Below are positions 2,099-62,380 of a DNA stretch of 64,000 bases, piece after piece. The stretch comes from Closterium sp. NIES-65. Its lineage: Eukaryota; Streptophyta; Zygnematophyceae; Desmidiales; Closteriaceae. Numbering within the stretch: the first letter of the stretch is position 1; each line of letters begins with the position of its first letter. A model generated the notes under the pieces. The model was not told the DNA's origin and did no database searches. It worked only from the letters and a program-made list of their open reading frames with translations. Location: NCBI GenBank assembly GCA_948144175.1, contig CANXME010000803.1:558001-622000 (forward strand). The letters run 5' to 3'. The position numbers and the translations under genes are program-made.

Positions 2099-2132
2099 AG
2101 TGGTATCAGAGCCCCTTGGAGCAACTTCGACT

Positions 2133-3767: not shown

Positions 3768-3776
3768 CATGATTTG

Positions 3777-6480: not shown

Positions 6481-6488
6481 TGGTCGCA

Positions 6489-17597: not shown

Positions 17598-17808
17598 CAC
17601 CCCCATAGGCAAAGTGGGGGAGAACAAGGGGTCACAAGACCAGTCAAGCAAAGTAAAGCAAAACAAGCTCAGGGTGGATCACAAAGTCACCACACAGTCT
17701 GAGCACAAGAGCAGGGCCAGAGGCCAGTTCACATGCAGGAGTACAGACATATATATATAAAACTAGACAAGCAAGAGCAGGTATATATATGTCACAGTAC
17801 AAGTAAAG

Positions 17809-23738: not shown

Positions 23739-23899
23739 TGACGACGACAGCGAAGCAGTGCAAGCAGTAGGGGAAGAGCGCGCAGTGACAGCGGTACTGT
23801 GCTCACCGGGCAGGGCAGGTCGGGCAGCTCTGCAGAAGGGCGGCTCGGCGACTCAGCGACTCGGCTACTGGGCGGCTCGGCTCCCGGGCGGCTCGGCGA

Positions 23900-24678: not shown

Positions 24679-24818
24679 GCTCTATACCATGTGAGAATAC
24701 TAGAACAGGAATGAAATGACTAAGTGAAAGTTGGGTACAAATACAAACCCTAGAGAGCTGTACCCCATATGTGCTACCCCACTGTAGCCTACAACAGCTA
24801 TGTCATATATATCTGACA
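24679..24818 (-). repeat. 5' LTR of copia A and primer site
   Basis: LTR 24690-24818 (129 bp). The primer site follows immediately on the minus strand at 24689-24679 and reads TGGTATAGAGC, one base short of TGGTATCAGAGC, which would weaken priming by initiator tRNA-Met. Flank TGCTT is at 24819-24823. Confidence 0.94.
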
Positions 24819-24823
24819 TGCTT

Positions 24824-25691
24824 CCCCTAGAGTTCTTCCCGGAATTGTTTTATGGCTCCGGACTCACAAAAATCAGCAGTCTTCATTAAAGCATCTTTGA
24901 AAGATAAGTTGAACGAATTCTGTTTTTTTTTCGGGGTCGAATTCGAGAGTTCCCGTCTTGGTCGAGTCTGTTTTCGCAAAGGTTTTCGTTTCCTCGGCGA
25001 ATTCCTCTGATAAATTTTGGTCAAGGGGCTTGGGATTTCGCCCCTGATTCTCCAAATCTCGCACCCAATGCTGTTCTTCAGTTTCGATTCGGTCAAGATT
25101 GCGCTGACGCTTTCGGACCTGCTTTTCCTCGCCAGCACGATCCGCAATTACTGGAGAGATCCGTTTTTACCTTTTGTCTTTAGTTTTGCCATTCCCTCGA
25201 GCTCGGAAGGCCGCACGTGCAGATTTGATGTGACAACAGTCGATAAGTTGATGTCCTTTTGCGCCGCAAAAAGCACAATTCAATTTGTTTTTTGCTGAGC
25301 GCAAATTGACGTCGATTTTGTCGACTTCCATGGGGTCGGCGAACGTGGTTGAAGCCGAGCAATCCCCTTGTCGTGATCCGACAACATGGGATCGTCGTGT
25401 TCCGTTATTGACCAGGTCAAACCTTTACGCGGCAGATACTATCTTACTATAGCTACTGCAATTCGTTGCTGCAACCTGGCGGCGAATGTCGGTTTTCAGC
25501 CCCAAAAGGGAGGACTGAATTTTTTCACAATCGGTAATGTCGGGAACACGGTTATTAAATTCTTCCATCTGCTGCGTGTATTGCGCGACACTCCCGAAAT
25601 TGCCGATGGTGATGTAATTTCTCGCGCGCAATATAAGTGGAATGAATCGGCTCAAAACGTTTGAGAAGGTCTGCCCGGAACTGCTGCCACG
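24824..25691 (-). pseudogene. gypsy C gag, middle part
   Basis: This is the piece of gypsy Gag between insertions A and B. From 25691: WQQFRADLLKRFEPIHSTYI, then in the next frame YITIGNFGSVAQYTQQMEEF and NNRVPDITDCEKIQSSLLGL, the usual retrotransposon gag (Retrotrans_gag) core. Charged Lys/Glu-rich sequence follows towards 24827 (KNSIGCEIWRIRGEIPSPL; IKQFREEL). A CxxC-type knuckle is not obvious. One-base shifts occur near 25620 and stops are scattered. Confidence 0.8.
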
Positions 25692-25822
25692 TGTCAAACT
25701 TATATGTTATAGTCTGTGTAGGCTGTAGTGGGGTAGTTCATATGGGGTACGACACTTTAGGGTTTCCCACTTGTACTCCTCATGCTGCTCAATGAAATCG
25801 TTCCTCGTTCTTTTTTCTCACA
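25692..25822 (+). repeat. 5' LTR of copia B
   Basis: TGTCAAACTTATATG to TTTCTCACA, 131 bp, followed by primer site TGGTATTAGAGC. It is the same LTR subfamily as copia G (5196-5326). Confidence 0.94.
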
Positions 25823-25899
25823 TGGTATTAGAGCAGAATCATTTCTAGGGCCCACCGAATGTTCCACCCTAACCTAACTGGTTTTTTTTTTTTAGCTGC

Positions 25900-27290
25900 C
25901 CCCGCGGCCGCGCTGCCCTCGCAGCCCGCGTGCTGCCCCTGCGACCGTGCTGCCACTATAGCCGTGCCTGCCCCTGCAGCTGTGCCCGCCCCTGCAGCTG
26001 TGCCCGCCCCTGCAGCTGTGCCTGCCTCTGCAGCCCGTGGGAGCTGCCCCTACAGCCCGCGCGCCGCTCTCCCGAGCAGCTGTGCCTGCCCCTGCAGCCC
26101 GTGGACGCTGCCTCTGAAGCCGTGCCTGCCCCTGCAGCCCGTGGGCGCTGCTTCTGCAGCCGTGCCTGCCCCTGCAGCCCGTGGGCGCTGCCCCTGCAGC
26201 TGTGCCTGCCTCTGCAGCCCGTGGGAGCTACCTCTGCAGCCCGCGCGCTGCCCTAGACTGTGCTCGTCGCGACGCCCCTGCGGGACCCGCGCGGTGTCCC
26301 CCCCCCCCCCCCCCCTGCTCGTCGCGGCGCCCCCCTGGGCGCCGTCCCTGCTCGTCGCGGCGCCCCCGTGGCATCGCCCCTGCTCGTCGCGGCGTCCCAA
26401 AGGCGCCGTCCCTGCTCGTCGCGACGCCCCCGGGGCGTCGCCCCTGCTCATCGCGACGCCCCCGGGGCATCGCCCCTGCTCGTCGCGGCGCCCCCTGGGC
26501 GCCGTCCCTGCTCATCGCGACCCCCCCGGGCGTCGCCCCTGCTCGTCGCGGTGCCCCCTGGGCGCCATCCTTGCTCGTCGCGACGCCCCCGGGGCGTCGC
26601 CCCTTCTCGTCGCGGCGCCCTTGCTCGTCGCGGCGCCCCTTGGGCGCTGTCCCTGCTCGTCGCGACGCCCCCGGGGCGTCGCCCCTGTTCGTCGCGGCGC
26701 CCCCTGGGTGCCGTTCCTGTTCGTCGCGGCGCCCCCTGGGCGCCTTCCCTGCTTGTCGCGGCGCCCTCGGGGCGCCTTCCCTGCTCGTCGCAGTGCCCCC
26801 GGGGCGTCGCCCCTGCTCGTCGCGGCGACCCCCCCCCCCCCCCCCTGCAGCACCTGCCTCGGAGCCCCGCCCTACAGCAGCTTCCGCGGATCCCCCTGTC
26901 ACCGTAGCGGCCCCGCCCTACAGCAGCTGCCGCGGAGCCACCTGCAGCAGTCGCGGCCCCGCCCTGCACCAGCTGCCGCGGAGCCCCCTTGCCGTCGTCC
27001 CGGCCTTGCCCTGCTGCAGCTGCCGCGGAGCCGCTTACAACAGTCGTGGCCCCGCCCTACAGCAGCTGCCGAGGAGCCCCCTGCCGCTGTCGCGGCCCCG
27101 CCTTGCAGCTGTCCCGGCCCCGCCGTCACCGCCGTCGTGCGCCTACCCTGCTCGCCTGGCGAGCGACTACCCTTCCCGCCACTGGTGAGCACTTGCCCGA
27201 CCCGCACTTCCCGCGCGCCTGCCTTACTAGCGCACTGCCACACTGCCCTGCCCGTGCTGCTACTACTGTTTCTGCTGCTACTGCTACTCC
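25900..27290. repeat. Minisatellite leader of copia B
   Basis: Three array types occur in succession. GCC-CCTGCAGC units lie at 25970-26260. About 17 units of 32-33 bp (core CTGCTCGTCGCGGCGCCCCC, then GGGGCGTCGCCC) lie at 26317-26826, bounded by C homopolymers of about 17-18 bp at 26298 and 26828. CAGCAGCTGCCGCGGAGCC units lie at 26870-27120. A 697-codon plus-strand open frame from 25859 crosses the whole leader but is out of frame with Gag, and I treat it as composition-driven. Confidence 0.8.
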
Positions 27291-27840
27291 TGCTACTGCT
27301 GCTCCTGGCGGTGGCCAGATGCAGCTCCAACAACGTCCGCGTGAGTCCCTCACGCTCCAGCAGCTACGTGAGTGGTACGCTAGTTGGGGTTGTAGGGGTG
27401 GCCGCGCTGCTACTGCTGCTACTGCGGCTACTACTGCTACATCTGCTCCTGGCGGTGGCCAGATGCAGCTCTAGCGACATCCGCGTGACTCCCTCACGCC
27501 CCAGCAGCTTCGTGAGTGGTACGCTAGTTGGGGTTGTAGGGGTGGCCGCCCTGCTACTGCTGCTACTACTATTACTGCTGCTAGTGCTGCTACTGCGGCT
27601 ACTACTGCTACTGCTGCTCCTGGCGGTGGCCAGATGCAGCTCCAGCGACGTCCGCGTGAGTCCCTCATGCCCCAGCAGCTTCGTGAGTGGTACGCTAGTT
27701 GGGGTTGTAGGGGTGGCCGTGGTGGGAGTCGCCTTGGAGCGGGTCGTTCGGGAGCTTCTTGTAATGACCAGATGCAGCTGCAGCAGCGTCCACGCGCGGT
27801 CCTCTCGCCCCACCAACTTCGTGAGTGGTACGCTCAGAGT
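27290..27840 (+). repeat. Four in-frame copies of a Gag module in copia B
   Basis: The segment GGGQMQLQQRPRESLTPQQL plus REWYASWGCRGG and an Ala/Thr linker is repeated with starts (CAGATG) at 27316, 27460, 27631 and 27769. The spacings of 144, 171 and 138 bp are all multiples of three. One copy carries a stop (QL then TAG near 27471). Other copias have a single copy. The linker is (GCT/ACT)n-rich, which may have promoted expansion. Confidence 0.85.
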
Positions 27841-29354
27841 GGAGGGTCACGGATTACTGTTCGCTGCCCGTACGTCATCCGCACTGGTGCTCGGGCTGGT
27901 CAGCCTTGCGAGACGATTGGTCACACAGATTCCCGCTGCTTCTCCCGTCTGAGCGGCGCCTGGCGTACAGAGTTTGGCGAGGCGGCTAAGCTCCCCGACT
28001 GGGTGGAGCTGCTTAGGCAGAGGGTAGATATCTTTGCTCTTGACTATGATGCTATCCTCACTGCCATGTATGCATTGCCTACTAGTGCTGAGGGTGCGTG
28101 TTACCTGTGTGTGCCACCTGACCCAGGTATAGAGTCTGCTGCTATGGTGCTGGTGAGGCTGCTGCTCTAGGTGCTGGTGCGTCTCCTCCTCCAGGTGCCA
28201 GTGAGGCTCCTGCTCTAGGCGCTAGAGAGTCCACTCCTCCGGGTGATGGAGAGTCTGCTCTCTCAGGTACTACGCGTGCTGCGGCCTTACACACTTTCAC
28301 CCCTGACTCGGGTCCTTCCCGCTCCTTTTTTTGCGAGTGCACCACACTCTCGCCGCTCAGTCGACCAGTGGCAGTCTCTCTGGCTGACCCCTCTGGGGGT
28401 CCGGTCCTTGCACACTCCTCCACGGTTCTGCCGTATCCGGCGGTCCCTTCTGGCTCTCTGTCTGGCCTCCACCTCCCTTCGTTCTCCACGAACTTGGTGA
28501 GTGGAGCTGACATTCAGGACGCCTGGGTTGACCAGTTCACTCCTGGAGGTCAGCGAGTGACCCACTGTTTGTGTACACAGACGAGCCGGCACCTGGCCAC
28601 GTTCACCCGTCAGCCTGGGTCGAGCCTGTACACCCTGACTACCGTGTCTCCTCCGGTTGCTGAGTCTGGTCAGGTAGCTGCGTCAGGTCCGGTGTTTACT
28701 GCAGCGTCCCGGTCTGGTCCTGAGTCTGCTCCCTGCTCGTGTCGCCTCCTGTCTCACCAGACACTCCTCTGGCACCACCGCCTTGGTCACCCCTCCTTGC
28801 CTCGTCTCCGAGGCATGGCCTCCCGTGTCCTTGTTACTGGTCTTCCCCGGTCTCTCCCTCCCCTTCCCCCGGGGCCTGCCCCTACCAGCGTTCCTTGCGT
28901 CGAGGGGCGGCAGCACGCCGCTCCTCACCCCTCCAAGCTCCCTCCGACGGGGCTCCCCTGCAGACACTTCACATGGACGTGTGGGGCCCAGCCCGTGTCC
29001 GTGGCCAGGGTCACGAGCGCTACTTTCTGCTGGTCATTGACGACTACTCGCGTTACACTACCGTCTTCCCCTTGCGCCACAAGGGTGAGGTCACTGAGGT
29101 GCTGATCGACTGGATCCGTGCTTCCCGTCGTCACCTTAGCGAGAGTTTCGGCTCAGACCTTCCTGTTTTGCGTCTGCACCCCGACTGAGGTAGAGAGTTT
29201 TCCTCCAACCTTCCGCAGGCCTTTTGTCATGCGGAGGGCATCCGCCAGACGTTCATGCTTCCGGCCTCTCCGCAGCAAAATGGGATTGCTGAGCGCCGCA
29301 TTCGCATGGTCATGGACGTCGCTCGTACATCCATGATCCATTCGGCTGCTCTCA
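27760..29354 (+). pseudogene. copia B gag tail, protease and integrase core
   Basis: QMQLQQRPRAVLSPHQLREW leads to the C-X13-C-X4-H-X4-C motif (CPYVIRTGARAGQPC, then H and RCF) and LSGAWRTEFGEAAKLPDWVE. A frameshift near 28150 follows. The protease reads FTPDSGPSRSFF (Asp kept, Gly-Pro after it). Next are TLLWHHRLGHPSLPRLRGM and integrase VWGPARVRGQGHERYFLLVI. The second Asp is in LHPD followed by TGA, and the Glu is in QQNGIAERR. The sequence breaks at about 29354 in MIHSAAL, fused to the hinge through a shared CTCAG, so the integrase C-terminal half is absent. Confidence 0.87.
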
Positions 29355-30700
29355 GGTAGACGCAGTCGAGCCTGTCGAGGTAGCTGTTGACTCTGGTTCT
29401 GTTAGGGGTGCTGAGCCTGTGTCTGCCGGGTCTGGGGGTGCTGAGCTTGAGCGTGCAGAGCCTGGGGGTGCTGAGTCTGAGGGTTCTGAGCCTGGGGTTG
29501 CTGAATCTGTGGGTGCGGAGCCTGAGGGTGCTGAGCGTGCGCATGTGGAGTCTGGAGGTGCTGCGCCTGGAGGTCCTTCGGGTGCTTCGTCCTGGCGGGA
29601 GCCACTCTCTCCACAGCCGCTGCGCGAGTGGTTTGCTCACCGCTAGAGGTATGTTGCTGGAGCTGGTGGTGCTACGGGCGCTGGAGGTCTTGCTGCTGCT
29701 GGATCTGCTGGGGGTTCTGGAACCACTAGTCCCGGAGGTGCTCGTACTGGAGGTACTGGAGCTGCTAAGCCTAGTGGTGCTGCTGGGGCTGGAGCTGCTG
29801 GAGGTGCTAGAGCTAGCGGTACTGCTGGAGCAGGTGCTGCTGGAGGTACCGGGGCTGGAGGTGCTGGCACTGCTGGAGCTTCTAGTGGTCCTGCTGGAGC
29901 TGGAGCTGCTGGGGGTGATGGAGCTGGAGGTGCTGCTGGAGCCGGTGCTCCTGTGGGAGCTGGAGTTGGCGCTACTAGAGCAGCTGGAGGTGCTGCTGGA
30001 GCTGGTGGTGCTGCTGGCGTGGGAGCTCCTGCTGGGGGTGTTGGTGCTGTCCTTGCTGGTTCAGGAGGCGCTGCGTGGCCGCGGCCTTCCTACGTTCGCT
30101 CCTTTAGCAGGTTCTTGGTCTCCCGCCTTCTACTGGTCCCGCTCCTTCCTTAGAATGTCCACCGCCTGTCCAGTCACAGTCACAGTTACAGTCCGCCTCC
30201 CCACTACCTGCTCCTTCTCCTTACAGTGGTCCGACCGAAGGTCTTGCTGAGCGTCGTGAGCCTGCGTCTCGTCCTGCGTCGCCTGTTCGTGCTGCTAGCA
30301 CTAGTCGTCCTAGTTCGCGCCAACGTCCTCCTCCTGTCCATGGCACGCACCGGATGGCTTTGCGCCATTCTACTGCTCCGCACCGTGTCTCTCTGCCGTC
30401 TCCTCTTGCGTCCTCTCTTCCTGCCCTTGCTGACCCGGAGTTTGACTCCCTTCGTGCTGCTAGTCCTGCTATCACGCGTCTCCTGGCCACTGTTGTCACT
30501 GCCCCTTCCTTTGAGTCCTCTGCTACGTCTGCCTTAGCTGCTGAGCTTGTCGACTTTGCTGCTCACTGTCGTCTAGACTACGCCGCGAGTCTTGTTGCTG
30601 AGTCTAAGTCTGTTTGTCCTCCGTCCGTTGAGGGTGAGTGTGCTCTTTGCACGGACGTCCTTGAGGACAGGCAGTAGGACTTTGAGTGCTTTGCAGCTGA
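29355..30700 (+). pseudogene. copia B hinge region
   Basis: Repeat-rich hinge between integrase and RT. It contains VDAVEPVEVAVDSG, then AEPGGAESEGSEPGVAES-type repeats, then WREPLSPQPLREWFAHR followed by TAG (29596-29646). A Gly/Ala/Thr tract from 10-20-bp GGTGCTGGAGCT-like units runs to about 30060. Next are a Ser/Pro linker and FDSLRAASPAITRLLATVVT and AAHCRLDYAASLVAESKSVC, ending EDRQ and TAG near 30675. There is no enzymatic motif; the same regions occur in A, I and K. Confidence 0.8.
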
Positions 30701-30713
30701 TGTACCTCATCTT

Positions 30714-31675
30714 GTGTCCATGGTGATTGCACCTGAGGGAGACTCGGATGCACCAGACATCCCAACCCCACGCTCTTACACAGAGGTGATAGAGGGTCCG
30801 TACTCCTCTCAGTGGCAGTCAGCCATGGACGCACAGATGGCATCCTGGAAGTCCACATACACCTACGTTGAGGAGGCTCCCCCTTCTGGGGCGAACAAGG
30901 ACAGTGGCATGTGGATTTTCAGGGTGAAGCGGCCGCCGGGTTCTCCGCCTGTCTTCAAGGCGCGTTACGTTGCTTGAGGCTTCAGTCAGCGACAGGGAGT
31001 TGACTTCTTCCAGACCTTCTTTCCGACCCCGAAGGTGACCACTCTTCGGGTTCTGCTGCACGTCGGTGCTCAGCGCGACTACGAGCTTCACTCTCTTTAC
31101 TTCAGCACTGCTTTCCTATAGGGCAGCCTGCACGAGGAGATCTGGCTGCGCCGCCCACCTGGCTTCACTGGGTCGTTTCCTCCTGGTACCCAGTGGAGCC
31201 TCCTGCGGCCAGTCTACAGCCTCTGGCTTCACTGGGTCATCACAGGGTTACACCTTCAGCCTTGGTTCTGGCTCTGTTTCGTGGCGGTCTACCTGCTCGT
31301 CTTCTGTTCTCGGCTCTAGTTGTGAGGCTGAGATCTACGCTGGGGCCATGGCTGCACAGGAGTTACGCTGGCTCACCTACCTGGTGACCGACTAGGGAGA
31401 GGTGCCGCGTTCTCCTCCAGTTCTCTACGTCGACAACAAGGCCATGCTGGCCTTGTTTAAGGAGCAGAGATTGGAGCACAAAACGAAGCACATTGCTCTG
31501 CGCTACTTCCTTCCTCGAGAGTTGCAGCAATGGGTCAGCTTCCTCTTGCGTACGTGGCCTCTCGGGCCAACACTGCTGATATCTTTACCAAGGCACTTTA
31601 GCCTTGTGATCATCAGCGTTTCCGTAGTATGTTAGGTCTTGTGCCTACCGGGCCTCACTTGCTTACCTCTTGACT
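30714..31675 (+). pseudogene. copia B RT and RNase H, internally deleted
   Basis: RT N-terminus: PEGDSDAPDIPTPRSYTEVI, SQWQSAMDAQMASWKSTYTY and GMWIFRVKRPPGSPPVFKARYVA with a TGA after it, then FSTAFL with TAG at 31119-31121 (CAG in relatives). HEEIWLRRPPGFTGSFPPGTQW follows. At about 31215-31235 the frame jumps from VYSLxxFTG to SSQGYTFSLGSGSVSW. The YVDD box, the rest of RT and the first RNase H Asp are deleted. RNase H keeps SCEAEIYAG and VLYVDNKAMLAL. The region to 31906 is untranslated and ends with the polypurine tract. Confidence 0.86.
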
Positions 31676-31906
31676 TTGTTTGTACTGTGATCTATATATA
31701 CATGCACCTGCATGCTTACCCTTGCTAGGTTGAGATGACTGTCTTGCTTGTTCACCTTGCTTTATAATCATGTATGTGAAGTGGCCTTGTGGCCTTGAAC
31801 TGGTGCTCAAAATGTGTGGTGACGTTGTGATCCACCCTGAGCTTGCTTTGCTTTGCTTGACTGGTCTTGTGACCTCTTGTTCTCCCCCACTTTGCCTATG
31901 GGGGTG

Positions 31907-32037
31907 TGTCAAACTTATATGCTATAGTCTGTGTAGGTTGTAGTGGGGTAGTTCATATGGGGTACAACACTCTAGGGTTTCCCACTTGTACTCCTCATGC
32001 TGCTCAATGAAATCTTTCCTCGTTCTTATTTCTCATA
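31907..32037 (+). repeat. 3' LTR of copia B
   Basis: 131 bp, TGTCAAACTTATATGC...TTTCTCATA. Seven mismatches to the 5' copy, including the terminal CA to TA. CCACG follows. Confidence 0.94.
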
Positions 32038-32460: not shown

Positions 32461-33227
32461 TCTAGGGTTTAGGTGGGTACAGGACGTGCAGGTGGGTGTA
32501 GACCGATGCGCTGGTTATCGCCGCGTCGCGCACATACTCAAATGTCGTGCCTGACGGTCTGGCCCCCATGCCGTTTTCGCATCTTTCCATAAGTTTGGTG
32601 AATTTGGCGTGGGTGATTGACAAAGTTGACGTTGGCACTGCCTGCCAGATCAACGTCTTGTTCCCAGCGGGCGGGTAGTTTCGGCGAAGTTCATCCATAA
32701 TATATTGACTGGGTGTGCAGACGGGAGTTGACTCCAATGCCAGTACGGCTCGGTCCAGTCTGCCACGTTTCGCAAGGCCCTCGGCTCGGCTGATGACTCC
32801 AGTCACATCGGGCTGGTGTCATGGCAATGGAGGGGTGTTGACCGCTTCTACCGTGTCGTGGTACAGCTGTTCCCATTCGCCATGCTGGAACGTTCTGAGC
32901 CGAGCCTTGACGTGTAGCCCGTTCAGTCGTTGTGGCGAGGTTTGGCGTAGTGTCAGGCACGGGAGAAAAAGCAGCAGGCGCCATCCCACTTCGGACTCTG
33001 GGTTTCGCGAAAGGTGTAGTAGCAAGGTCAGCAGTACCAACGAAAGCAGTTGACACAGGTTTGGCGGTAAACGCCGTGACAGAGATGGATGTCAACTAGT
33101 GCAAAAATATCCCACTTTGCGATGTCAGCGAACTTGTCTGCTTGCTTTGCCAGCTCCTCTGGCAAAAAATAGCATGAATTTTTGAGAACTATTTGCACCG
33201 CGATTTCGGTAATGGCGGTTCGATCTC
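32461..33227 (-). pseudogene. Non-LTR RT gene N-terminus (copy 1)
   Basis: From about 33220: DRTAITEIAVQIVLKNSCYF, LPEELAKQADKFADIAKWDI, SLSRRLPPN, ESEVGWRLLLFLPCLTLRQT, SPQRLNGLHVKARLRTFQHG (EWEQLYHDTVEAV), SRAEGLAKRGRLDRAVLALE, DELRRNYPPAGNKTLIW and AAITSASVYTHLH. It stops just before the RT fingers, at the edge of gypsy C. The missing RT palm is plausibly 13400-14859 on the other side of C. Several frameshifts. Confidence 0.75.
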
Positions 33228-34936
33228 GTGGCCGATGGTAGGGTTGGAATTACGCCTGTTCGATCAGCATCAAACCATCCTCCAACTGCTCCAGGTCTTT
33301 GCGAGGCTAACTGCCCTATGCCTACTTCTCCTCTCTCAGCTGTCTCCCTCGCCCCTTCTTCTTTGCTCGATTCTCCACTCTTGCTTACGGTAGTGGTTCC
33401 TCCCAATAAATGGGGTCTGTTTGTTCCTCCACTTCATTAGTTTCTTCTAAGTCGATTAAAGCCCTGCGCCCCGCTGCTTGATACCCGTTCTCCGGACCCC
33501 CGCCTGCTCCGCTAACGGCTTGTCTCCCCGCTCTACGACCTCCACGTCCATGGGATGATTGCCGGAGGGCCTGAGCTGTCGCCAGCGCGCGCTATCGCCG
33601 CATCAGCTGCGTTTGCCAAGCCCCAGTCGCGGCACGGAATGGCTCACTGTGCCGCCAACTCCGAAGCCCGTGACAATAACCTCCAGAATGCCTCACTCCC
33701 CCGCACCCGCGGTTCCTGTTGCGTCTTTTGCTACTCCTGATGCTCCCCTCTGTGCCGCTAGCGTTAGCAATTGCTGCGACTGTCGTTGGTCTGCCGCTTG
33801 CCGTCCTTGCCGCTCCGCTTGTGGGCATCGAGTGGGCGGTTTTGCTTACGCCGGGGCAACGCAACTGGTGGTGTCCCCCACCAATGACGCCCTGGGCCCG
33901 GTAGCTATCTCTGTCACTCCCGCTCCTCCGACTACGGCGACACTAGTGCCGCTCACGTCCAACCAGGCTGTTCCTGATCATGCACCACTTGCTGCTGCTC
34001 TGCCCACTTAGCACCCGCCATCTCCAGGCAGCCGGCAGAACCGGCCTCCTCCCTTGCGCCTCGTGACGAGCGGGAACAGTCAAGGCGGCGCCATGACTCT
34101 CCTCGGCGCCGTGGTTCCCATGCGAATTGGGTTGCGTCTCGCGGTGGCCGTGGTGGCTGGTGGGGAGGGCACAGTCGTGGTGGGGACGGGGCGTATGATC
34201 GCCCGGTGTCGATGGCTGATTTGCAGCGTGTTGTGTCTGCTGCGGTGCGCGAGGAGCGGAACGGGCAGGCGAGCAGGAGCAACTCGCCGCGCGGTGCCCC
34301 AACACATGCGTCTCCTCTTCCTGTTGCGGCCACTCCATCTGCAACTCCTCTTCCCCGGTCGGATGTTCCTCCTCCCTTTGCTCCCGCTGCATTTGCCGCC
34401 GCTCATGGGAATTGCATGCGCCTGCCGTGGATTCCTCCTGTGGCGGGCATTGAGTTTGTGACCACGGCAGGGGGAAATGTGACACCGCGATATCCGTTCC
34501 TCCTAACTATGGGTCGTGCTCCTTCGGCAGTTGCGCTGCCACTACAGTCATTGGTGGGCCTCGTGCTTCAGCGGAGGTGCCGCAGGCATCTCTGGGGCAA
34601 CCGTCGCGCCTCTTGGAGGGTCTGCAGGTTGTGCACCTGATTCAGGTGTATGGGCACGCGGCTCTTTCCCAGGGTGTTTCTTTGGATGGCAGCCCTCGGG
34701 ACGAGAGCCTAGATGCCGCAGATTGGCTTGCCGAGCTCATGGCGCCCGTGATGGCTGCGCCCGTGCGGGGTGGAGTTGCGGGCGTTGAACGGCTTCGAAA
34801 TGCTCTCCGTGGTCTGCGCCAGTTTTTGCACACAGGGACTGCAGTCGACTTGATCGGCGCAACCACAGTGGTGGTGCGCGAGCTTCATCGCTCGCTGACG
34901 AGGCTCCTTGCTATTCTTGACGCGGATCAGATGTAG
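33228..34936 (+). pseudogene. Gag-like ORF1 of the non-LTR family (copy 1)
   Basis: The ORF is on the strand opposite to the RT and starts head to head with it. The start codon is GTG where copy iii has ATG: ADGRVGITPVRSASNHPPTA. A Pro/Ser/Ala-rich region follows, then an Arg/Gly-rich tract near 34150 and MADLQRVVSAAVREERNGQA (SRSNSPRGAP). A conserved C-terminal helical domain of about 110 residues contains LEGLQVVHLIQVYGHAALSQ, DAADWLAELMAPVMAAP, LRNALRGLRQFLHTG and LLAILDADQM, ending at TAG 34934. Four or more frameshifts are present. I do not recognise the fold; an RNA-binding or capsid-like role is a guess. Confidence 0.55.
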
Positions 34937-35314
34937 TATCCGTCGATGCCCCCCTCCCTAGGACGTAGTGTTGCTTAGGCCAATGTTGCTATTGCCATTG
35001 CGTGTATGGTGTTGCATTGATCTTTTGCTTGGTATTCCCCTTGCCACCCCAAACAACGCGGCCGCAGGCCTTGTCGTCGAGCGTAAAAAAAAATTATGCC
35101 GCACACAATGAAAAAAAAGAGGTCAAAGAGGCCCCTTTATAGTTACGAAGGCCGAGGGCAGGGGCCTAAGGGCCGAGAGCAGAGGCTAAGGATAGGAACA
35201 AGCCTCTCTTTCGGGGAGTACAAGAACACAAGGTGCGGCAGCGAAGAAATAAAGAAACAAATACTACACCAATACCTAACTACCACCAGCCCATCTAGAT
35301 TTCAACAAGGGTCT
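34937..35314. other. 3' regions between ORF1 and the RT C-terminus (copy 1)
   Basis: No gene. A plus-strand A9 tract at 35084-35092, preceded by GAGCGT, may be the remains of a poly(A) tail of an ORF1 transcript; copy 2 has A7 at the same place (55521-55527). The remainder is the untranslated region downstream of the minus-strand C-terminal segment and is conserved between the copies. Confidence 0.5.
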
Positions 35315-35637
35315 CTAGTAGGCTGCCAGAGAGCCGTAGTAATCTGATATTTTTTTGTCGGCTACTTCCGTGGCAGCCCACCCCCTTCCTTTCACTGCAT
35401 TGGGGTCACGTGAGCTGATGGGGTCAGTGATGGTGACATCTCCAATCAAAACTGCCTTTGAGGACCGGTCACGGATGGCCAGGTCTGCTGTCTTCCAAAT
35501 AATCATGCATAATTCCGCAGATTCCTTGTGCACCATGAACCTGGCGTATTGGGCCATCCTAACGCACCCATCCTTCGCTCGTTTCGTGTATTTTTCCTCC
35601 TACCCCCTATGACTCCTCTACAAAGAGAGAAAACAAA
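35315..35637 (-). pseudogene. C-terminal nuclease-like segment of non-LTR RT protein (copy 1)
   Basis: The minus strand reads MAQYARFMVHKESAELCMII, TADLAIRDRSSKAVLIGDVT, ITDPISSRDPNAVKGRGW and AATEVADKKISDYYGSLAAY, then a stop. Its D-x(n)-D-V-T-I-T-x-P...K layout resembles the C-terminal restriction-like endonuclease segment of R2-type non-LTR elements, where a PD...D...K set cuts the target; here the first residue pair is AD. Upstream it is cut at 35637 and fused, by chance in frame, to copia I RT. Confidence 0.6.
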
Positions 35638-37460
35638 CGACCTAGTGAAGCCAGGTGGGCGGCGCAGCCAGATCTCCTCGTGCACGCTGCCCTATAGGAA
35701 GCCTGTGCTAAAGTCAAGAGAGTGAAGCTCATAGTCACGCTAAGTGGCGACGTGCAGCAACACCCGAAGAGTGGTCATCTTCGGGGTGGGAGAGGTCTGA
35801 ATGTTGTCAACTCCCTGTCGCTGAGTGAAGACTCGAGCAACGTAGCATGCCTTGAAGACACGCGGAGAACCTGGTGGTCGCTTCACCCTAAAAATCCACA
35901 TGCCATCGACAATGTTCTCCCTAGGTGGGGGAACCTCGTCAACGTAAGTGCCTATGGACTTCCAGGAAGCCACCTCTGCGTCCATGGCTGTCTGCCACTA
36001 AGAGGAGTAGGGACCCTCTATTGCCTCTGCGTAAGAGCGCGGGGTTGGGATGTCTGGTGCATCCGGGTCTCCCTCAGGGGCAAGCAGCATGGACACGAGA
36101 TGAGGTAAAGCAGCAGCAAAACACTAAAACTCCTCGTGCCTGTCCTCAAGGACGTCTGTGCCAAGAGCACACTCACCCCCGACGGACGGAGGACAGACAG
36201 ACTCAAACTCAGCAATAAGACTAGCGGCGTAGTCTAGACGACTGTGAGCAGCAAAGTCGACGAGCTCAGCAACAAGAGCCGACGCAGCAGTAGACTCAAA
36301 GGAAGGGTCAGTGACAACTGTGGCCAGGAGACGCGTGACAGTAGGACTAGCAGCACAAAGGGAGTCAGACTCCGGGTCAGCAAGGTCAGGAAGAGAGGAC
36401 TCAGGAGGAGACGGAAGAGGGACACGCTGCGGAGTAGTGGAAGGACACAGTGCCATGTGGTAAGTGCCGGGGACGGGAGGAGGACACTGACGCGAACTAG
36501 GACGACTAGTGCAAGCAGCACGAACAGGTGACGCACGATGAGACTCAGGCGCACGATGCTGCGTAAGACTTCCGGTCGGACCAGTGTAAGAAGAAGGAGC
36601 AGGCAGTTGGGAGGCGGGCTGTAACTGCGGCTACGACTGGACAGGCAGTGGACACTCTAAGGAAGGAGTAGGACCAGTAGAAGGCGGAAGACCAAGAACA
36701 TGCTGAAGGAGCGGAACGAAGTACGGCTGCGGCCGCGCAGTGACTCCAGAACCAGCAGAGACAGCACCAGCACCCCCAACGTGAGCTCCAACGCCCGCAG
36801 CACCACCAGCTCTAACAGTACCTCCAGCAGCTCCATCAGCGCCAACTCCAGCACCTCCAGAAGTACCGGATCCACCAGCACCGCCAGCTCCAGCACGACC
36901 ACTAGAAGCCCCAGTAGTTCCTGTAGCACCAGCTCCAACTCCTCCAGCAGCACCCGCTCCAGCAGCACCGCCCACTCCAACACCTCCAGAAGCACCAGCT
37001 CCAGCAACACCACCTGGCCCACCAGCTCCAGTACCTCCAGTACGAGCACCTTCGGGACCAGTGGCTCGAGCAACCCCAGCAACTCCAGTGGCAGCAGGAC
37101 CTCTAGCGCCAGTAGAACCAACAGCTCCAGCAGCATGGCTCCAGCGCCGAGCAAACCACTCGCGCAGCTGCTGTGGAGAGAGTGGCTCCCTCTGGGATGA
37201 AGCACCCGAAGGACCTCTAGGCTCAGCACCTCCAGACTCCACACGTGCAAGCTCACCACCCTCAAACTCCGCACCCCCAGACTCATCAACCCCAGGCTCA
37301 GCACCCCCAGGCTCAGCACCCCCAGACTCAGCACCCCCAGGCTCTGTACGCTCAAACTCAGCACCCCCAGACCCGGCACCCGCAGGCTCAGCACCCCTAG
37401 CAGTACAAGAGTCAACAGCTACCTTGACAGGCTTGACTGCGTCTACCTGGGACACAACTG
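35638..37460 (-). pseudogene. copia I hinge and RT start
   Basis: From 37455: SQVDAVKPVKVAVDS (the Q codon CAG is a TAG in A), AEPAGAGSGGAEFERTEPGG-type repeats, REPLSPQQLREWFARRW (37142-37197), and a Gly/Ala/Thr tract to about 36750. A Ser/Pro linker and DSLCAASPTVTRLLATVVTD follow. RT start: SS-TAG (35998-36000)-WQTAMDAEVASWKS, GMWIFRVKRPPGSPRVFKA, FSTGFL-TAG (35692-35694)-GSVHEEIWLRR. It ends at 35638. Confidence 0.87.
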
Positions 37461-41204: not shown

Positions 41205-41507
41205 CATAATATAGAATATGATAACCTAGGTACAAGGTGAGGCTACATATAGGCTTGACACAAACGTTTTGCGGGTGTTATTGGAAGGTTTTGCGGGTTG
41301 CAAAGCGTCCTAAAGGGGTTCTTCCCAAAGTCGGTAGAAGGCAATTCAGTGGCAACCGTAAAGCCTAAAATTTGGCGCACTCGACCTAGTTCACTGCAAT
41401 ATAAAATAAAAACTATGAGTCTAGCAATAAAGTCTAGCAAAGCTAGACTTTGCGCAATTAAGCAAAATCAAGCAATTAAAGTCTAGCAAAGTCGTCGTAC
41501 TCTCGCA
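41205..41507 (-). repeat. Gypsy LTR remnant of the L family
   Basis: The minus strand starts TGCGAGAGTACGACG, as the L LTR does at 61009, and ends ATATTCTATATTATG. It aligns with L's LTR along its length once the miniature element is removed, sharing GCCAAATTTTAGGCTTT and GTGTCAAGCCTATATGTAGC. It lies inside copia K's RT on one side and touches copia I's LTR on the other. No internal gypsy sequence is attached. Either a solo LTR or a truncated end. Confidence 0.78.
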
Positions 41508-52975: not shown

Positions 52976-53645
52976 CAGATCTGGCTACGTCGTTCGGTGA
53001 ATTCGGCGTGGGTGATGGACAAAGTTGACGTTGGCATCGCCTGCCAGGTCAACGTCTGGTTCCCAGCGGGCGGGTAGTTCTGGCGAAGTCATCCAGAATA
53101 TCTGGATTGGGTGTGCAGATGGGAGTTAACTCCAGTGCCAGCACGGCTCGTCGCAGGCTGCCACGTTTCGCAAGGCCCTCGGCTCGGCTGATGACTCCAG
53201 TCACATCGCACTGGTGTCGTGGCGGTGGAGGGGTATTGACCGCTTCTACCGTGTCGTGGTACAACTGTTCCCATTTGCCATGCTGGAACGCTCTAAGCCG
53301 AGCTTTGACCTGTGGCCAGTTCAGTCGTTGTGGTGAGGTTTGGCGAAGTGTCAGGCACGGGAGAAAAAGCAGTAGGCGCCATCCCGCTTCGGACTCTGGG
53401 TTTCGCGAAAGGTGTAGTAGCGAGGTCAACAGTACCAGCGAAAATAGCTGACTCAGGTTTGGAGGTAAACGCCGTGACAGAGATGGATGTCGGTTGTCCC
53501 TCAGTGCAGAAATATCCCACTTTGTGATGTTAGCGAACTTGTCCGCTTGCTTTGCCAGCTCCTTTGGCAAAAAATAGCAGGAATTTTCGAGAACCGGTTG
53601 CACCGCGGTTTTGGTAGTGGCGGTTCGATCTCGCCGAGCGCGGTT
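52976..53645 (-). pseudogene. Non-LTR RT gene N-terminus (copy 2)
   Basis: From 53620: ENSCYFLPKELAKQADKFAN, ITKWDISALRDNRHPSLSRR, ESEAGWRLLLFLPCLTLRQT, SPQRLNWPQVKARLRAFQHG, KWEQLYHDTVEAVNTPPPPR, HQCDVTGVISRAEGLAKRGS (LRRAVLALE) and LSITHAEF. It is longer in one frame than copy 1 (about 225 codons). It is cut at 52976 before the RT domain. Highly similar to 32600-33220. Confidence 0.78.
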
Positions 53646-53656
53646 CGATCTCGTGG

Positions 53657-55365
53657 CCGATGGTAGGGTTGGAATTACGCCTGTTCGAGCAGCATCGAAC
53701 CATCCTCCGACTGCTCCATGTCTTTGCGGGGCTAACTGCCTTATGCCTGCTTCCCCTCTCTCAGCTGTCTCCCTCGCCCCTTCTTCTTCGCCCAATTCTC
53801 CACTCTTGCTTACGGGTAGTGGTTCCTCCTTGTTTGTGGGGTCTGTTCATTCCTCGACTTCATTAGTTTCTTCAAAGTCGATTAAAGCCCTGCGCCCCGC
53901 TGCTTGATACCCATTCTCCAGACCCCCGCCTGCTCCGCTAACGGCTTGTCTCCCCGCTCTACGACCTCCACGTCCATGGGATGGTAATTATCGGAGGGCC
54001 TGAGCTATCGCCAGCGCACGCTGTCGCCGCATCAGCTGCGTTCGCCAAGCCCCAGTCGGAGCACGGAATGGCTCACTGTGCCGCCAACTCCAAAGCCCGT
54101 GACAATAATCTATACAATGCCTCACTCCCCCGCACCCGCGGTTCTTGTTGCGCCTGTTGCTGCTCCTGCTGCTCCCTTCTATGCCGCTAGCGTTAGCCCC
54201 TGCTGTGACTGTCATTGGTCCGCCGCTTGCCGTCCTTGACGCTTCACCTGTAGGTGTCGAGTAGGTGGTTTTGCTTATGCCGGGGCACTGCAACCAGTGG
54301 TGTCCGCCACCACTGACGCCCTGGGCCCGGTAGCTATCTCTGTCGCTCCCGCTCCTCCGACTACGGCAACACTAGTGCCGCTCGCGTCCGACCAGGCTGT
54401 TCCTGATCATGCACCCTTTGCTACTGCTTTGCCGGCTTAGCGCCTGCCGTCTCCAGGTAGCCGGTAGCACCGGCCTCCTCCCTTGCGCCTCGTGACGAGC
54501 GGGAGCGGTCAAGGCGGCGCCATGACTCTCCTTGGCGCTGTGGTTCCAACGCAAATTGGGCTGCGTCCCGCGGTGGCCATGGTGGCTGGTGGGGAGGGCA
54601 CGGTCGTTGTGGGGACTAGGCGTATGATCGGTCGGTGTCGATGGCTGATTTGCAGCGCGTTGTGTTTGCTGTAGTGCGCGAGGAGCGGAACGGGCAGGCA
54701 AGCAGGAGCAACTCGCCACGCAGTGCCCCAACACATGCGTCTCCTCTTCCTGTTGCGACCACTCCGTCTACAACTCCTCTTCCCCGGTCGGATGTTCCTC
54801 CTCCCTTTGCTCCCGCTGCATTTGCCGCCGCTCCTGGGAATCGCATGCGCCTGCCGTGGATTCCTCCTCTGGCGGGTATCGAGTTTGTAACCGCGGCAGG
54901 GGGAACTGTGATAACGCAGTATCCGTTCTTCGTATCTATTGGTTATGCTCCTCCGGCTGTTGGGCTGCTGGTACAGTCATTGCTGGGCCTTGTCATTCAG
55001 CGGAGGTGCCGGAGGCATCTCTGGGGCAACTGTCGCGCCTCTCGGAGGGTCTGCAGGCTGTGCATCTGATTGAGGTGTATGGGCACGCGGCTCTTTCCCA
55101 GGGTGTTTCTCTGGATGGCGGCCCTCAGGACGAGTGCCTAGATGCTGCAGATCGGCTTGCCGAGCTCCTGGCACCCGTGATGGCTGCACCTGTGCAAGGT
55201 GGAGTTGCGGGCGTTGGACGGCTTGGGAATGCTCTCCGTGGTCTGCGGCGGTTTTTGCACGCAGGGACTGTAGTCGACTTGATCGGCGCAACCACAGTGG
55301 TGGCGCACGAGCTTCATCGCTCGCTGACGGGGCTCCTTGCTATTCTTGACGCGGATCAGATGTAG
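53657..55365 (+). pseudogene. Gag-like ORF1 of the non-LTR family (copy 2)
   Basis: Same layout as 33228-34936: ADGRVGITPVRAASNHPPTA (GTG start), a Pro/Ser-rich part, SMADLQRVVFAVVREERNGQ, LPWIPPLAGIEFVTAAGG. A frameshift shared with copy 1 follows, then SAEVPEASLGQLSRLSEGLQ, AVHLIEVYGHAALSQGVSLD, DAADRLAELLAPVMAAPVQG and LHRSLTGLLAILDADQM, ending at TAG 55363. The C-terminal 170-codon frame (54856-55365) is uninterrupted. Unrecognised fold; probably helical. Confidence 0.57.
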
Positions 55366-56514: not shown

Positions 56515-56519
56515 CTTTG

Positions 56520-56661
56520 TCTCAGAATGTGTTATCGTCTAGTGTGCAGTGGGGTACTTTAGAGTGAGTACAACCCAAATTAGGATTTGCTATATGTATC
56601 CTATCTGCTGCTAGTGGAAACCCCTCTCTTCTGCATTTCATTCCTGTTCGTTACTTTGACA
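56520..56661 (+). repeat. 5' LTR of element E
   Basis: 142 bp, TCTCAGAATGTGTTATC...TACTTTGACA, followed by the primer site. It differs from the 3' LTR by about 15 substitutions and a 5-bp length difference, so the element is not recent. Confidence 0.85.
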
Positions 56662-57839
56662 TGGTATCAGAGCAGGTCGACCCTCGCGGGTCGATCCTGT
56701 GGATGGGCCCACCCTGCTGTTTCCGCTGCTGTCCTGCCTGTTGCACGCCCCGGGCGCGCGGCGTTCTCTGCCTGCCGCATGCCCGGTGCACGTGGCGTGT
56801 GCGGCGGTTTTCTGCCTGCCAGGCGCTCGGGGCGCGTGGCGGTTTCCTGCCCGCCGCGCGCAGGGGGCGCGCGTAGCGGTTTCGTCGCCCGACGCGGCGC
56901 CCCGGGGGCCCGCGCGCTGTCCCCTCCCGTCGCCTGCCGCGGCGTCCCGGGGGCCTATGCGCTATCCCCTCATGTCGCTCGCCGCGGCGTCCCAGGGGCC
57001 CGCGCGCCGCCCCCCATCCCGTCGCCCGTCGAAGCGCCCCGGGGGCCCGCGCGCCGCCCTGCCCATCGCCCGCCGCAGTGCCCTGGGGGCCCGCGCGTCG
57101 CCCCTCCCTCCCGTCGCCCGTCGCTGCGCCCTGGGAGCCTGCGCGCCGCCCTGCCCGTCGCCTGTCGCAGCACCCAAGGGAACCGCGTGCCGCCCCGCTT
57201 CCGCTCGCACGCCACCCCAGCAGCTGCCCGCGTGTCTGTCCCGCGCCGCCTGCGTTTGGGGTGTTGGGGTGGCGGGTATGGAGGTGGCGGGTGTGTGAGC
57301 CGTCCCATGCTCCTCCTCCTCCCCCTCCTCCTCCTCCTCCTCCGCCTCCGTCTCCCACTGCTGCAGCTGCCACTAAAGGGTGTGTAGGAGCCGAGGGTGT
57401 GGCACTAGGGGGGTGTCGTGAGAGTGGAGCTAGGGGTGCAGCAGGGGGTGTGTGAAAGGGGGTCTGCGACACTGGGGGAGGTTGAGAGGAGGTAGCCGTC
57501 GTGTCGCCAGCAGCACCGGTAGTCCGGAGCTGGCGTGCTCCGGTAGCCCAGCGAGTCTGCTGCGCCAGTCGCCCGTGTGTTCGTTGCTCCTACCGCTCGT
57601 CTTAGCCACGGAGCCAGTTACTCTTGTAGTCCGGGGCCCTTGCTCCGGTAGCCACCGTGTGTGCGCTCCTGTTGCCCATGTGTCTGCGGCTTCACCAGTC
57701 GTCTCCTATCTCCACTCCTCTCACAGTCCCTCCTCCTCCTCACTTGCCCTCTGTGACTGCCTCTAGCTTTGCTTGTGCTTGTGAACTCTTATGCGACTGC
57801 TTGCTGTGGTGATTATACCCCACTTTGCCTATGGGGGTG

Positions 57840-57976
57840 TGTCAGAATGTGTTATTGTCTAGTCTGCTGTGGGGTACTCTATAGTGAGTACAGCCCAACT
57901 TAGGGTTTGCTATATGTATCCTATCTGCTGCTAGTGGAAACCCCTCTCTTCTTCACTCCTGTTCGTTATTTTGACA
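57840..57976 (+). repeat. 3' LTR of element E
   Basis: 137 bp, TGTCAGAATGTGTTATT...TATTTTGACA, preceded by the polypurine tract TATGGGGGTG. Confidence 0.87.
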
Positions 57977-60078: not shown

Positions 60079-60122
60079 TGGTTCATAAAATATAATATGA
60101 TCACCTGGGTACAAGGCGAGGC

Positions 60123-60130
60123 TATATATA
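60123..60130 (-). promoter_or_regulatory. TATA box in gypsy L LTR
   Basis: TATATATA within GAGCCTATATATAGCCTC on the minus strand, about 45 bp before the LTR end. The equivalent in the other copy is CCTATATGTAGCC. The predicted promoter for element RNA is downstream of the miniature element in reading direction. Confidence 0.45.
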
Positions 60131-60285
60131 GGCTCGACACAAAAGCAGTAACCCGTGTACTACTAGAAGGTTCCGCGGGTTGCATAGTGAACCGAACGGG
60201 TCCTTCCCAAATTCGGTAGAAGGCAATTGGGAGGCAATAGGAAAGCCAAGAATTTGGCGCACTCAATCTATTTCGGTGCCTATAA

Positions 60286-60897
60286 TGTCAGTAGATCTGC
60301 ACTGTAGATGCCCGATTGATCCTACGGGGGGTTACAGGCGCGTTTGCCTGGGGGGTTATGGGCGCACTCTGACCCGCTACTTAACAAGCCCTTTTATCCC
60401 AATGGTCTAGTGGTTGGGATTCTGACATGGTATCAGAGCGGTCTCGGGTTCGAATCCCGGTGTATGCACATGTAGGCCGTTGCCGCTGTGCTCAGTTCTG
60501 GGCCTCCCAGTGTGGGGGGGTGTCAGTAGATCTGCACTGTAGATGCCCGATTGATCCTACGGGGGGTTACAGGCACGTTTGCCTGGGGGGTTATGGGCGC
60601 ACTCTGACCCGCTACTTAACAAGCCCTTTTATCCCAATGGTCTAGTGGTTGGGATTCTGACATGGTATCAGAGCGGTCTCGGGTTCGAATCCCGGTGTAT
60701 GCACATGTTGGTCGTTGCCACTGTGCTCAGTCCTGGGCCTCCCAGTGTGGGGGGGTGTCAGTAGATCTGCACTGTAGATGCCCGATTGATCCTACGGGGG
60801 GTTACAGGCGCGTTTGCCTGGGGGGTTATGGGCGCACTCTGACCCGCTACTTAACAAGCCCTTTTATCCCAATGGTCTAGTGGTTGGGATTCTGACA
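60286..60897 (+). mobile_element. Miniature LTR element in a triple-LTR tandem, flanked by TATAA
   Basis: Three 142-bp LTRs (60286-60427, 60521-60662, 60756-60897; TGTCAGTAGATC...ATTCTGACA) alternate with two 93-bp internal segments (60428-60520, 60663-60755). The first and third LTR are identical, the middle differs at one base, and the internals differ at four. Each internal segment is just a primer site TGGTATCAGAGC, a tRNA T-arm-like stretch and a polypurine-type end GTGTGGGGGGG. Perfect target duplication TATAA (60281-60285 and 60898-60902). The size puts it with TRIM/SMART elements. No protein is encoded; movement would need proteins in trans. The near-identity indicates recent activity. 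Confidence 0.93.
60396..60467 (+). other. tRNA-like fold across the LTR/primer-site junction
   Basis: Box A TGGTCTAGTGG (60403-60413, in the LTR) and box B GGTTCGAATCC (60447-60457, internal) both match the pol III consensus and are 44 bases apart, the canonical tRNA spacing from position 8 to 52. The D arm (GTCT/GGAT), an anticodon arm TCTGA-CATGGTA-TCAGA with a 7-base loop, and a T arm TCGGG-TTCGAAT-CCCGG can form. The acceptor ends ATCCCAA and TGTATGC do not pair, so it is not a working tRNA. TTTT lies just upstream (60392-60395). Repeated at 60631-60702; a third box A lies at 60873-60883 without a box B. Confidence 0.75.
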
Positions 60898-61009
60898 TAT
60901 AACTAGGAAATCAAGCCAAAGCATGTAAGATAAAATGAAACTAAGCTAGATACTGTGTAATAATGCGGATCAAGCAAGTAAAGTCCAGCAAAGACGTCGT
61001 ACTCTCGCA

Positions 61010-62380
61010 CGCCCCCACCTCAAAGCTGGGTGGCATGAGAAATATACTGCTTAACAAGATAATCCTTGAGAGCACGGCATGCGTTGCCCATATCAGCTTC
61101 TGCAACCCAACTGTCCTCTAACGGGTCGTATCCCTTCCAGCGTATCAGAAACTCGAGCATGTTGCTGCGTCTGCGTCAATGAGCGATCACACGTTCCACC
61201 TCGTACTCTGGTTCATCCTGTACAATAACAAGTGGTGGTGGTGGTAGCTGGTGTCCCTAAAATTGTTGGTTGGTGTCCTTGTAACACTAAAGTAGCTGAA
61301 CATGGGAAGCGTTGTGAAGCTTCCCCATAGAAGGTAAGCACAAGCGGGATGTTCCTGGTGTCACCATCGCCTCAACGCAAAAGGGACCACCGAAGCGAGG
61401 CTGGAGCTTAGACGGAAGATGGGACAAGTCCAAGTTGTGTGTGTCGAGAAGCACCTGATCTCCTATTGCTACCGAGTGATTACATCGCTGTTAATTGGCA
61501 TACTGCTTCTGGGAGTTCTACCTCGTGGTGAGACGTGGCCGAGTCTTCTCCCATAGTTGCTGCATGGTGGTGACTATGTCGTGTGGGGCTTGGACGTGTG
61601 CCAGTGTGGTTGGCTGCTGTGGTGTAAGTCGTTCCAGTCTGTAACACACGAAGACAGGAGTTTTCCCTGTGGCTGCATGTGAAGCGTTGTTGTAAGCGAA
61701 CTCACGTGTCGGTAACTGCAGATCCCAGTGGTTGATGTCGTATTTGCAAGTTGTACGCAGTAAATATTTAACCACCTGATTGAGTTGCTCATTCTGTCCA
61801 TCACTCTGGGGGTGGTATGTTGAAAACATCGCAAACTTTTTCCTCAGCAAACCCATGAGTTCCTTCCAGTATTTTCTAGTGAATTTTGGGTCTCCGTCTG
61901 AGACAAGTGTAGCGGGGATGTCGTGGGTGGTGATTATGTGGTTAAAGAAGAGACAAGTAGGTATTTCAGCTGTAGCCGTGGTATTGGTCGAGATGAAGTG
62001 CCCCATTTTATAGAACTTGTCGATCACAACGAGTATTGCGTCATGCCCTTGTGAGGTTGAAGGAAGCTTGATGATGACGTCCAGGCAAACGACTGGCCAT
62101 GGCTGCTCCGGTACGGATAGAGGCTGAAGTAACCCTTCTTTTTCTGCTTGCTACTCTTCATCCGCTGGCACGTGTCGCACGAGGTGACGAATCGCTGCAC
62201 GTCTGCTGCTGTCCGAGGCCAGTAGTACTTTTTTCTATCCTTGCTATAGTCTTGTTTTTCCCAAAATGTCCTACGTATGCTACGTCGTGAAACTCCTCCA
62301 GTAAGATCGGTCGGAGCGAGGCATAGTTCGGTACCTATATCTTTCCTGAACCCTTCATACTGCAAAGGTTTTCTCCCACT
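61010..62380 (-). pseudogene. gypsy L integrase and chromodomain
   Basis: Zinc-binding domain near 62290-62150: RKKYYWPRTAADVQRFVTSC, DTCQRMKSSKQ (the two Cys). Core: WPVVCLDVIIKLPSTSQGHD-type start, MIDKFYKMGHFISTNTTATA, LVSDGDPKFTRKYWKELMGL (second Asp) and HPQSDGQNEQLNQVVKYLLR (Glu). DINHWDLQLPTREFAYNNAS and GKTPVFVCYRLERLTPQQPT follow. The chromodomain near 61060-61210 is NMLEFLIRWKGYDPLEDSWV, AEADMGNACRALKDYLVKQY. Frameshifts near 62030 and 61520, and stops, make it inactive. Integrates cDNA in intact relatives. Confidence 0.88.

Follow-up and report, generated by a model that had tools for sequence, protein, structure and literature searches.

Structure of the element and its surroundings

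The window analysed here, a 64-kb stretch of the Closterium sp. NIES-65 assembly, contains a 612-bp tandem TRIM whose arrangement, LTR-internal-LTR-internal-LTR (142/93/142/93/142 bp), is confirmed. Coordinates and comparisons agree with the earlier note in giving three 142-bp LTRs and two near-identical 93-bp internal regions between perfect TATAA duplications, and the repeat unit is 235 bp long (60286-60897). LTR 1 and LTR 3 are identical and LTR 2 differs from them by one base; the two internal regions differ from each other at four bases, none of which lies inside 60396-60465. The features of the element and of its Copia neighbours are as follows.

17469-24818, 25691-32035 and 56518-57976: short-LTR Copia elements, LTRs about 129-144 bp
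18513-20627 and 20715-23360, minus strand: reverse transcriptase and integrase ORFs of Copia
60281-60285: left target-site duplication (TSD), TATAA
60286-60427, plus strand: LTR 1, 142 bp, TGTCAG...CTGACA
60385-60387, plus strand: CAA triplet, 9-11 nt 5′ of the point where the tRNA-like part begins, candidate region for pol III initiation
About 60386-60395, plus strand: predicted R
60392-60395, plus strand: TTTT, possible pol III terminator
60403-60413, plus strand: box A TGGTCTAGTGG, junction 1
60421-60437, plus strand: hairpin TCTGA-CATGGTA-TCAGA spanning LTR/PBS junction 1
60428-60520, plus strand: internal region 1, 93 bp
60428-60439, plus strand: first primer-binding site (PBS), TGGTATCAGAGC
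60447-60457, plus strand: box B GGTTCGAATCC, junction 1
60510-60520, plus strand: polypurine-like tract (PPT) GTGTGGGGGGG, G-rich, end of internal region 1
60521-60662, plus strand: LTR 2 (middle), 142 bp
60627-60630, plus strand: TTTT of LTR 2
60638-60648, plus strand: box A, junction 2
60656-60672, plus strand: hairpin spanning LTR/PBS junction 2
60663-60755, plus strand: internal region 2, 93 bp (PBS 60663-60674, PPT-like tract 60745-60755)
60682-60692, plus strand: box B, junction 2
60756-60897, plus strand: LTR 3, with box A at 60873-60883 and no box B downstream
60862-60865, plus strand: TTTT of LTR 3, predicted 3′ end of transcripts
60898-60902: right TSD, TATAA

Both internal regions start with TGGTATCAGAGC, which we take to be of the initiator-Met 3′-end type, and end with GTGTGGGGGGG. 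A TRIM is expected to be shorter than 1 kb, with at least two LTRs, a non-coding internal region bounded by PBS and PPT, and a TSD of 4-6 bp. The element here measures 612 bp (monomers of the family about 340-377 bp), the longest stop-free frame wholly within 60286-60897 is 86 amino acids, TGGTATCAGAGC begins at 60428 and GTGTGGGGGGG occupies 60510-60520, and the TSD, TATAA, has 5 bp. Within the window, 41205-41392 is related to 60084-60274 (78%) and runs to ATATAA without a TRIM, as expected of a relative of the target that is unoccupied. A 1.1-kb repeat (15221-16338 and 61047-62170, ~65% identity) starts about 150 bp 3′ of the TRIM.

Two of the Copia elements of the window have clear 5-bp TSDs by eye (AAGCA and CCACG). 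The window's Copia elements share with the TRIM the TGTCA...TSACA ends, the 5-bp TSD and an identical or nearly identical PBS; LTR bodies and PPTs do not match. The TRIM is probably mobilised by Copia. For the reverse-transcriptase part of one Copia ORF, the 120 matches listed, of 8,000 scored, are without exception Closterium proteins. Elsewhere in the window, ARAGORN calls a tRNA-Ser(cga) of 72 nt at 53592-53663, inside a 3-kb repeat with another copy at 32593-35638 (90%); this call is probably false, since it has no Rfam tRNA match at gathering and is short for a tRNA-Ser.

A tRNA-type box pair across the LTR/PBS junction

Box A belongs to the LTR and box B to the internal region; their starts are 44 nt apart, the spacing of tRNA genes. 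Within the 64-kb window, a strict box A plus box B pattern at tRNA spacing occurs only in the TRIM (two copies, one element), and in 300 dinucleotide shuffles it occurs on average 0.027 times per 64 kb, with a maximum of 1. The claim that a tRNA-type pair straddles the LTR/PBS junction is supported. A looser pair is observed twice, and shuffled sequence yields it 0.86 times per window on average and up to 5 times, so that the looser pattern is neither significant nor informative on its own. In U3, no TATA-like motif is evident by eye.

A real tRNA gene at the junctions was considered and rejected. The Rfam tRNA model does match at both junctions, but at 16.4 bits, below the gathering score of 29. 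ARAGORN at default settings finds no tRNA at the TRIM junctions, and relaxed settings place the junction at 34-35, inside a background range of 27-38 among the matches listed. In the MFE fold of the isolated junction RNA, the TCTGA-CATGGTA-TCAGA hairpin and a T-arm hairpin form, with a stability that is not unusual (z -0.70), and no cloverleaf is seen. Rfam searches give no tRNA match at E ≤ 10 at three other loci of the family (L005, L031 and L036) and no match of any kind at gathering in the 64-kb window. The anticodon-like stem-loop reported at the primer site is present, but its reading as a special tRNA feature is not supported: all of its 17 nt (TCTGACATGGTATCAGA) are repeated at a plain Copia LTR/PBS junction (5320-5336) that has neither box A nor box B, and we no longer count the hairpin as tRNA evidence.

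The flanks of the junction were aligned with tRNA sequences (tRNA-Glu, tRNA-Asp and initiator Met). On the LTR side as on the internal side, tRNA-Glu fits with 0 of 2000 mononucleotide shuffles as good. On the internal side tRNA-Asp is also better than all 2000 shuffles, which a generic T-arm explains, and on the LTR side the fit of the other two is poor (102/2000 shuffles as good for tRNA-Asp and 857/2000 for initiator Met). We infer that the junction flanks descend from a tRNA-Glu-like sequence, or from that of a tRNA-headed SINE. We read the whole as a putative tRNA-derived promoter, not a tRNA, in which a Copia-type LTR/PBS joint has taken the position of the anticodon arm.

Abundance of the family

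A 39-mer R-U5 motif around box A in its alpha form (TTTT, GTGGTT) is found at 8,167 places in the 874-Mb assembly with at most one mismatch, and its beta form (TTCT/GTGACT) at 178 places, with 0 places in the same assembly for the reversed control motifs of either form. The 612-bp query against the 874 Mb gave 1,881 first-look candidates, and 49 matches came from the 40 that were scored. The first 100 alpha places listed, in contig order and all exact, fall into 71 groups, of which 43 are single; paired places lie 233-236 bp apart in 14 groups, 204-209 bp in eight, 443-470 bp in four and 313 bp in one, and one triple is spaced 235+235. By this spacing, units of both subfamilies described below seem to occur, as do tandems and LTRs that are solitary or have a diverged partner. 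The TRIM family is a high-copy one in Closterium, with thousands of genomic matches to the LTR end. Among 61 distinct copies in the sampled loci (L001-L070), an exact 5-bp TSD is present in 35 of the 57 with at least two LTRs, edges having been set automatically.

Relatives also appear as translated pieces in predicted Closterium proteins of NIES-54 and NIES-53; these predicted 'proteins' (P0121-P0145), being wholly or partly translated pieces of the TRIM or its relatives, are annotation noise. In them, VV is present in 9/9 terminal cases (two of which end there) and at 4/13 junctions (one counted by eye), a comparison in which subfamily and predicted introns are confounding factors.

Conservation of the boxes

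In the sampled loci, the box B consensus is kept at 59 of 68 junctions, and 18 of the 27 junctions whose box B is unlike GGTTCGAATCC differ at an N position of the consensus only. A second subfamily, with LTRs of ~137 bp and internal regions of ~69 bp, was found by chance as four copies in the flanks of L007, L011, L031 and L036, the L011 copy being cut. In the core 60386-60461, whose limits we placed with the help of the predicted start and of box B, it differs from the window copy at 5/304 bases plus a common 3-nt insert between PBS and box B; in U3, on the other hand, 68/384 bases differ, and in the rest of the internal region 19/128 together with a 27-nt deletion (Fisher 2e-13 and 3e-7, respectively, against the core). 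In sliding windows, divergence between the subfamilies falls from 0.049 to 0.008 at 60386.

Among the closest 30 loci, with all LTRs and internal regions taken together, the 11-mers of box A and box B are no more intact than others, whereas box A is variable at 2/336 sites and U3 at 86/3,084 when 31 3′ LTRs are compared (L016, whose arrays are the same as those of L013, was left out of both counts). Apart from the 3′ LTRs, the closest loci thus show no excess at the boxes, and it is mainly the comparison between subfamilies that argues for constraint. The earlier note held that the tRNA-like fold would be chance if other copies lacked the boxes or if the box B region occurred at a single locus; with R-U5 matches genome-wide, box B kept at most sampled junctions and a second subfamily sharing the core, neither is the case.

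The TTTT run and two haplotypes

Junctions in L001-L070 carry two R-U5-PBS haplotypes, alpha (TTTT/GTGGTT/TGGTATCAGAGC) and beta (TTCT/GTGACT/TGGTGTCAGAGT). In beta, the last G of box A is lost and the T4 run is broken; it accounts for 30/68 junctions in this query-biased sample, as against the genome-wide ratio of 178 to 8,167 places. It is coupled to TGGTGTCAGAGT in arrays (26/68 junctions) and to the canonical PBS in monomers. No beta was found among 36 3′ LTRs of the first sample (two unclassified), which was query-biased; in a second, pattern-based sample selected for beta, however, the haplotype sits in both LTRs of TSD-flanked monomers. The rule that beta never occurs in a 3′ LTR is thus rejected and the reading that it marks only dead inner junctions is dropped, leaving the PBS bias alone.

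The TTTT described before box A is indeed there, 7 nt 5′ of it, and T4 is present in 27/36 5′ LTRs, 19/46 middle LTRs and 33/36 3′ LTRs. Its role as an obligatory terminator, on the other hand, is doubtful: four of the seven monomers listed lack a T4 run, among them L047, which is flanked by the TSD ATAGA and has identical LTRs, although T4-bearing alpha still dominates genome-wide. L047 may descend from a parent with a beta 5′ LTR and an alpha 3′ LTR, of which L041 and L055 are examples, and it would then have beta in both LTRs since R-U5 in each new LTR is templated by the 5′ end; alternatively, T4 may not matter. Among four mixed TSD-flanked copies (L041, L051, L053 and L055), the 5′ and 3′ LTRs are of different haplotype or, in L051, one LTR resembles the other subfamily; such mixtures are not expected from standard reverse transcription and may point to conversion or template switching. 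Translated traces of beta (VTGILTWCQ) also occur in NIES-54, so the haplotype split may be old.

Tandem arrays and their inner primer sites

In 29 arrays of the window's three-LTR, two-internal type (L3I2), the outer LTRs differ from each other by 3.2% and from the middle LTR by 7.4%, the outer pair being the closer in 22 and not in seven; in the 17 with exact TSDs, the corresponding values are 1.7% and 7.6%. This comparison excludes L004, L016, L038-L040 and the window copy. Across arrays, middle LTRs differ from one another by 7.6% and from outer LTRs by 8.0%; being mutually as unlike as middle and outer LTRs are, they do not form a single dimer lineage. The canonical PBS is found at 37/51 first junctions and 11/53 inner junctions, with same-flank copies merged and internal regions whose profile match began past position 1 excluded; taken separately, it is found at 27/40 first junctions of arrays (p 7e-6 against the 11/53 inner ones) and in 10/11 monomers. 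This preferential degeneration of inner primer sites supports transposition as a unit, and tandem copies do seem to insert in this way. The outer/middle pattern appears better predicted by reverse transcription of a dimer RNA, or by template switching between two RNAs, than by unequal exchange after insertion.

Relation to known elements

The novelty that the earlier note suggested for a tRNA-based analogue of Cassandra does not stand, as Helenus TRIMs (TRIMp3), whose LTRs contain a tRNA-derived sequence with box A and box B, were published in 2024 (Kojima 2024, PMC10886601). The general idea is already known, and the split across the LTR/PBS junction is a new variation of it. TRIM groups with pol III-type promoters are Cassandra, Helenus and Ajax, in all of which the promoter lies in the LTR, and only that of Cassandra is validated, promoter function being unproven for Helenus itself (PMC10886601). 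PMC12859917 cites the Helenus work. Among the matches listed from the open-licence literature, no title deals with a tRNA-type promoter that is split or with a TRIM of Closterium.

The Closterium element resembles Helenus in being miniature and non-autonomous and in having tRNA-type box A and box B, a PBS and a PPT; the two boxes are conserved here too, between subfamilies and, for box B, at most sampled junctions. Fungal and plant Helenus have a 5-bp TSD, a Copia partner was inferred for the fungal families, and tandem arrays are known in one fish family (PMC10886601). Helenus is recognised, however, by tRNA sequence inside its LTRs, so every Helenus LTR should carry the promoter, whereas in Closterium box A is in the LTR, box B is internal and the PBS lies between them; the host, a zygnematophyte alga, is absent from the Helenus host table (PMC10886601). 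With Cassandra the element shares a putative pol III promoter logic and, by prediction, an RNA with short terminal repeats (18 bp in Cassandra, PMC10886601), as well as tandem LTR-internal arrays and the PBS TGGTATCAGAGC (PMC7215508); Cassandra is also covered in PMC10853983. Unlike the 5S rRNA promoter that Cassandra has in its LTR, the putative Closterium promoter is of tRNA type and not wholly in the LTR, and a 5S rRNA search of 60100-61100 returns no match at E ≤ 10.

Tandem TRIMs and tandem LTR elements of plants are described in PMC7215508, PMC4717578 and PMC11899658, the last two of which have similar L3I2-type arrays between TSDs and suggest a single insertion for rice loci; the preferential degeneration of inner primer sites sets the Closterium arrays apart from these plant tandem TRIMs and LTR retrotransposons. 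The box A/box B promoter of tRNA-headed SINEs, finally, is derived from a tRNA. The Closterium TRIM has such boxes, and differs from these SINEs in its LTRs, PBS, PPT and 5-bp TSD, and in integrase-type rather than target-primed insertion.

A model for the element and its alternatives

We favour, with a probability of roughly 0.62, a reading in which the locus is a tandem L3I2 copy of a high-copy, non-autonomous Closterium TRIM that would have a tRNA-Glu-like pol III promoter split by the LTR/PBS junction and would use Copia enzymes in trans. Pol III would be recruited only where an LTR is joined to a downstream internal region and would start near the CAA at 60385-60387; such triplets up to 10 nt upstream reportedly serve as start sites in Arabidopsis tRNA genes (PMC11700998). 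The polymerase would pass the start-proximal T4, which falls within the first ten bases, and would usually stop at the TTTT of a later LTR. The product would be ~245 nt long when it spans one unit and ~480 nt when it spans two, and would carry a terminal repeat of ~10 nt. Initiator tRNA-Met would prime at the 5′-most PBS, and reverse transcriptase and integrase would come in trans from a Copia element like the short-LTR ones of the window. Tandem copies would be inserted as units, so that only the first primer site would stay under selection. We give even odds to the stricter proposition that the promoter exists only at intact LTR-internal junctions, its halves parted by the primer site in the anticodon-arm place; solo and terminal LTRs would then be silent, only transposition-competent joints would be transcribed, and the element would belong to a class distinct from Helenus and Cassandra.

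The most serious competitor, which we consider unlikely though at a level to be reckoned with, is an ordinary pol II TRIM in which the tRNA-like stretch survives as a remnant, perhaps of a former tRNA or SINE captured at the birth of the TRIM, and is kept for R, U5, PBS and packaging. Any LTR element requires R, the U5 end and a PBS, beta copies have transposed despite a broken box A and no T4, and the Rfam score is below threshold, all of which would fit; yet neither box B nor the sequence that separates it from the PBS is a known reverse-transcription signal, and both are nevertheless kept between subfamilies while the remaining internal region is deleted or diverged, variant box Bs mostly change an N position only, and a TATA-like motif is not evident in U3. 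A far less probable origin is that of a strict-sense Helenus TRIM whose tRNA-derived sequence was formerly all in the LTR, with parts since displaced. The size class, the 5-bp TSD and the boxes are those of Helenus, and in Selaginella the LTR of Helenus-1_SMo measures 120 bp and its internal region 85 bp (PMC10886601), but that family is defined by tRNA sequence inside the LTR, and the box B region is internal at all 68 junctions tabulated and in the monomers of the second subfamily.

Least probable of all, in our estimate, is a chance origin of the two boxes and the hairpin. A loose box pair is expected nearly once per window, and the LTR end TTCTGACA, where it adjoins an iMet-type PBS, yields the hairpin as a by-product; against coincidence stand the rarity of the strict pattern in shuffled sequence, the match of both flanks to tRNA-Glu beyond 2000 shuffles and the conservation of the boxes between subfamilies.

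Implications

Closterium is a zygnematophyte, a streptophyte alga and a close algal relative of land plants, and its TRIM would extend the pol III-type kind to the Zygnematophyceae, at high copy number. The degenerate inner primer sites are evidence for transposition of tandem LTR elements as whole units, a point left open in the Discussion of PMC11899658. Furthermore, if the promoter is split by the primer site, loss of the internal region through solo LTR formation removes the promoter, and transcription would thus be tied to being mobile. The Closterium TRIM offers a tractable test of how a pol III RNA with a terminal repeat of only ~10 nt could serve an LTR element.
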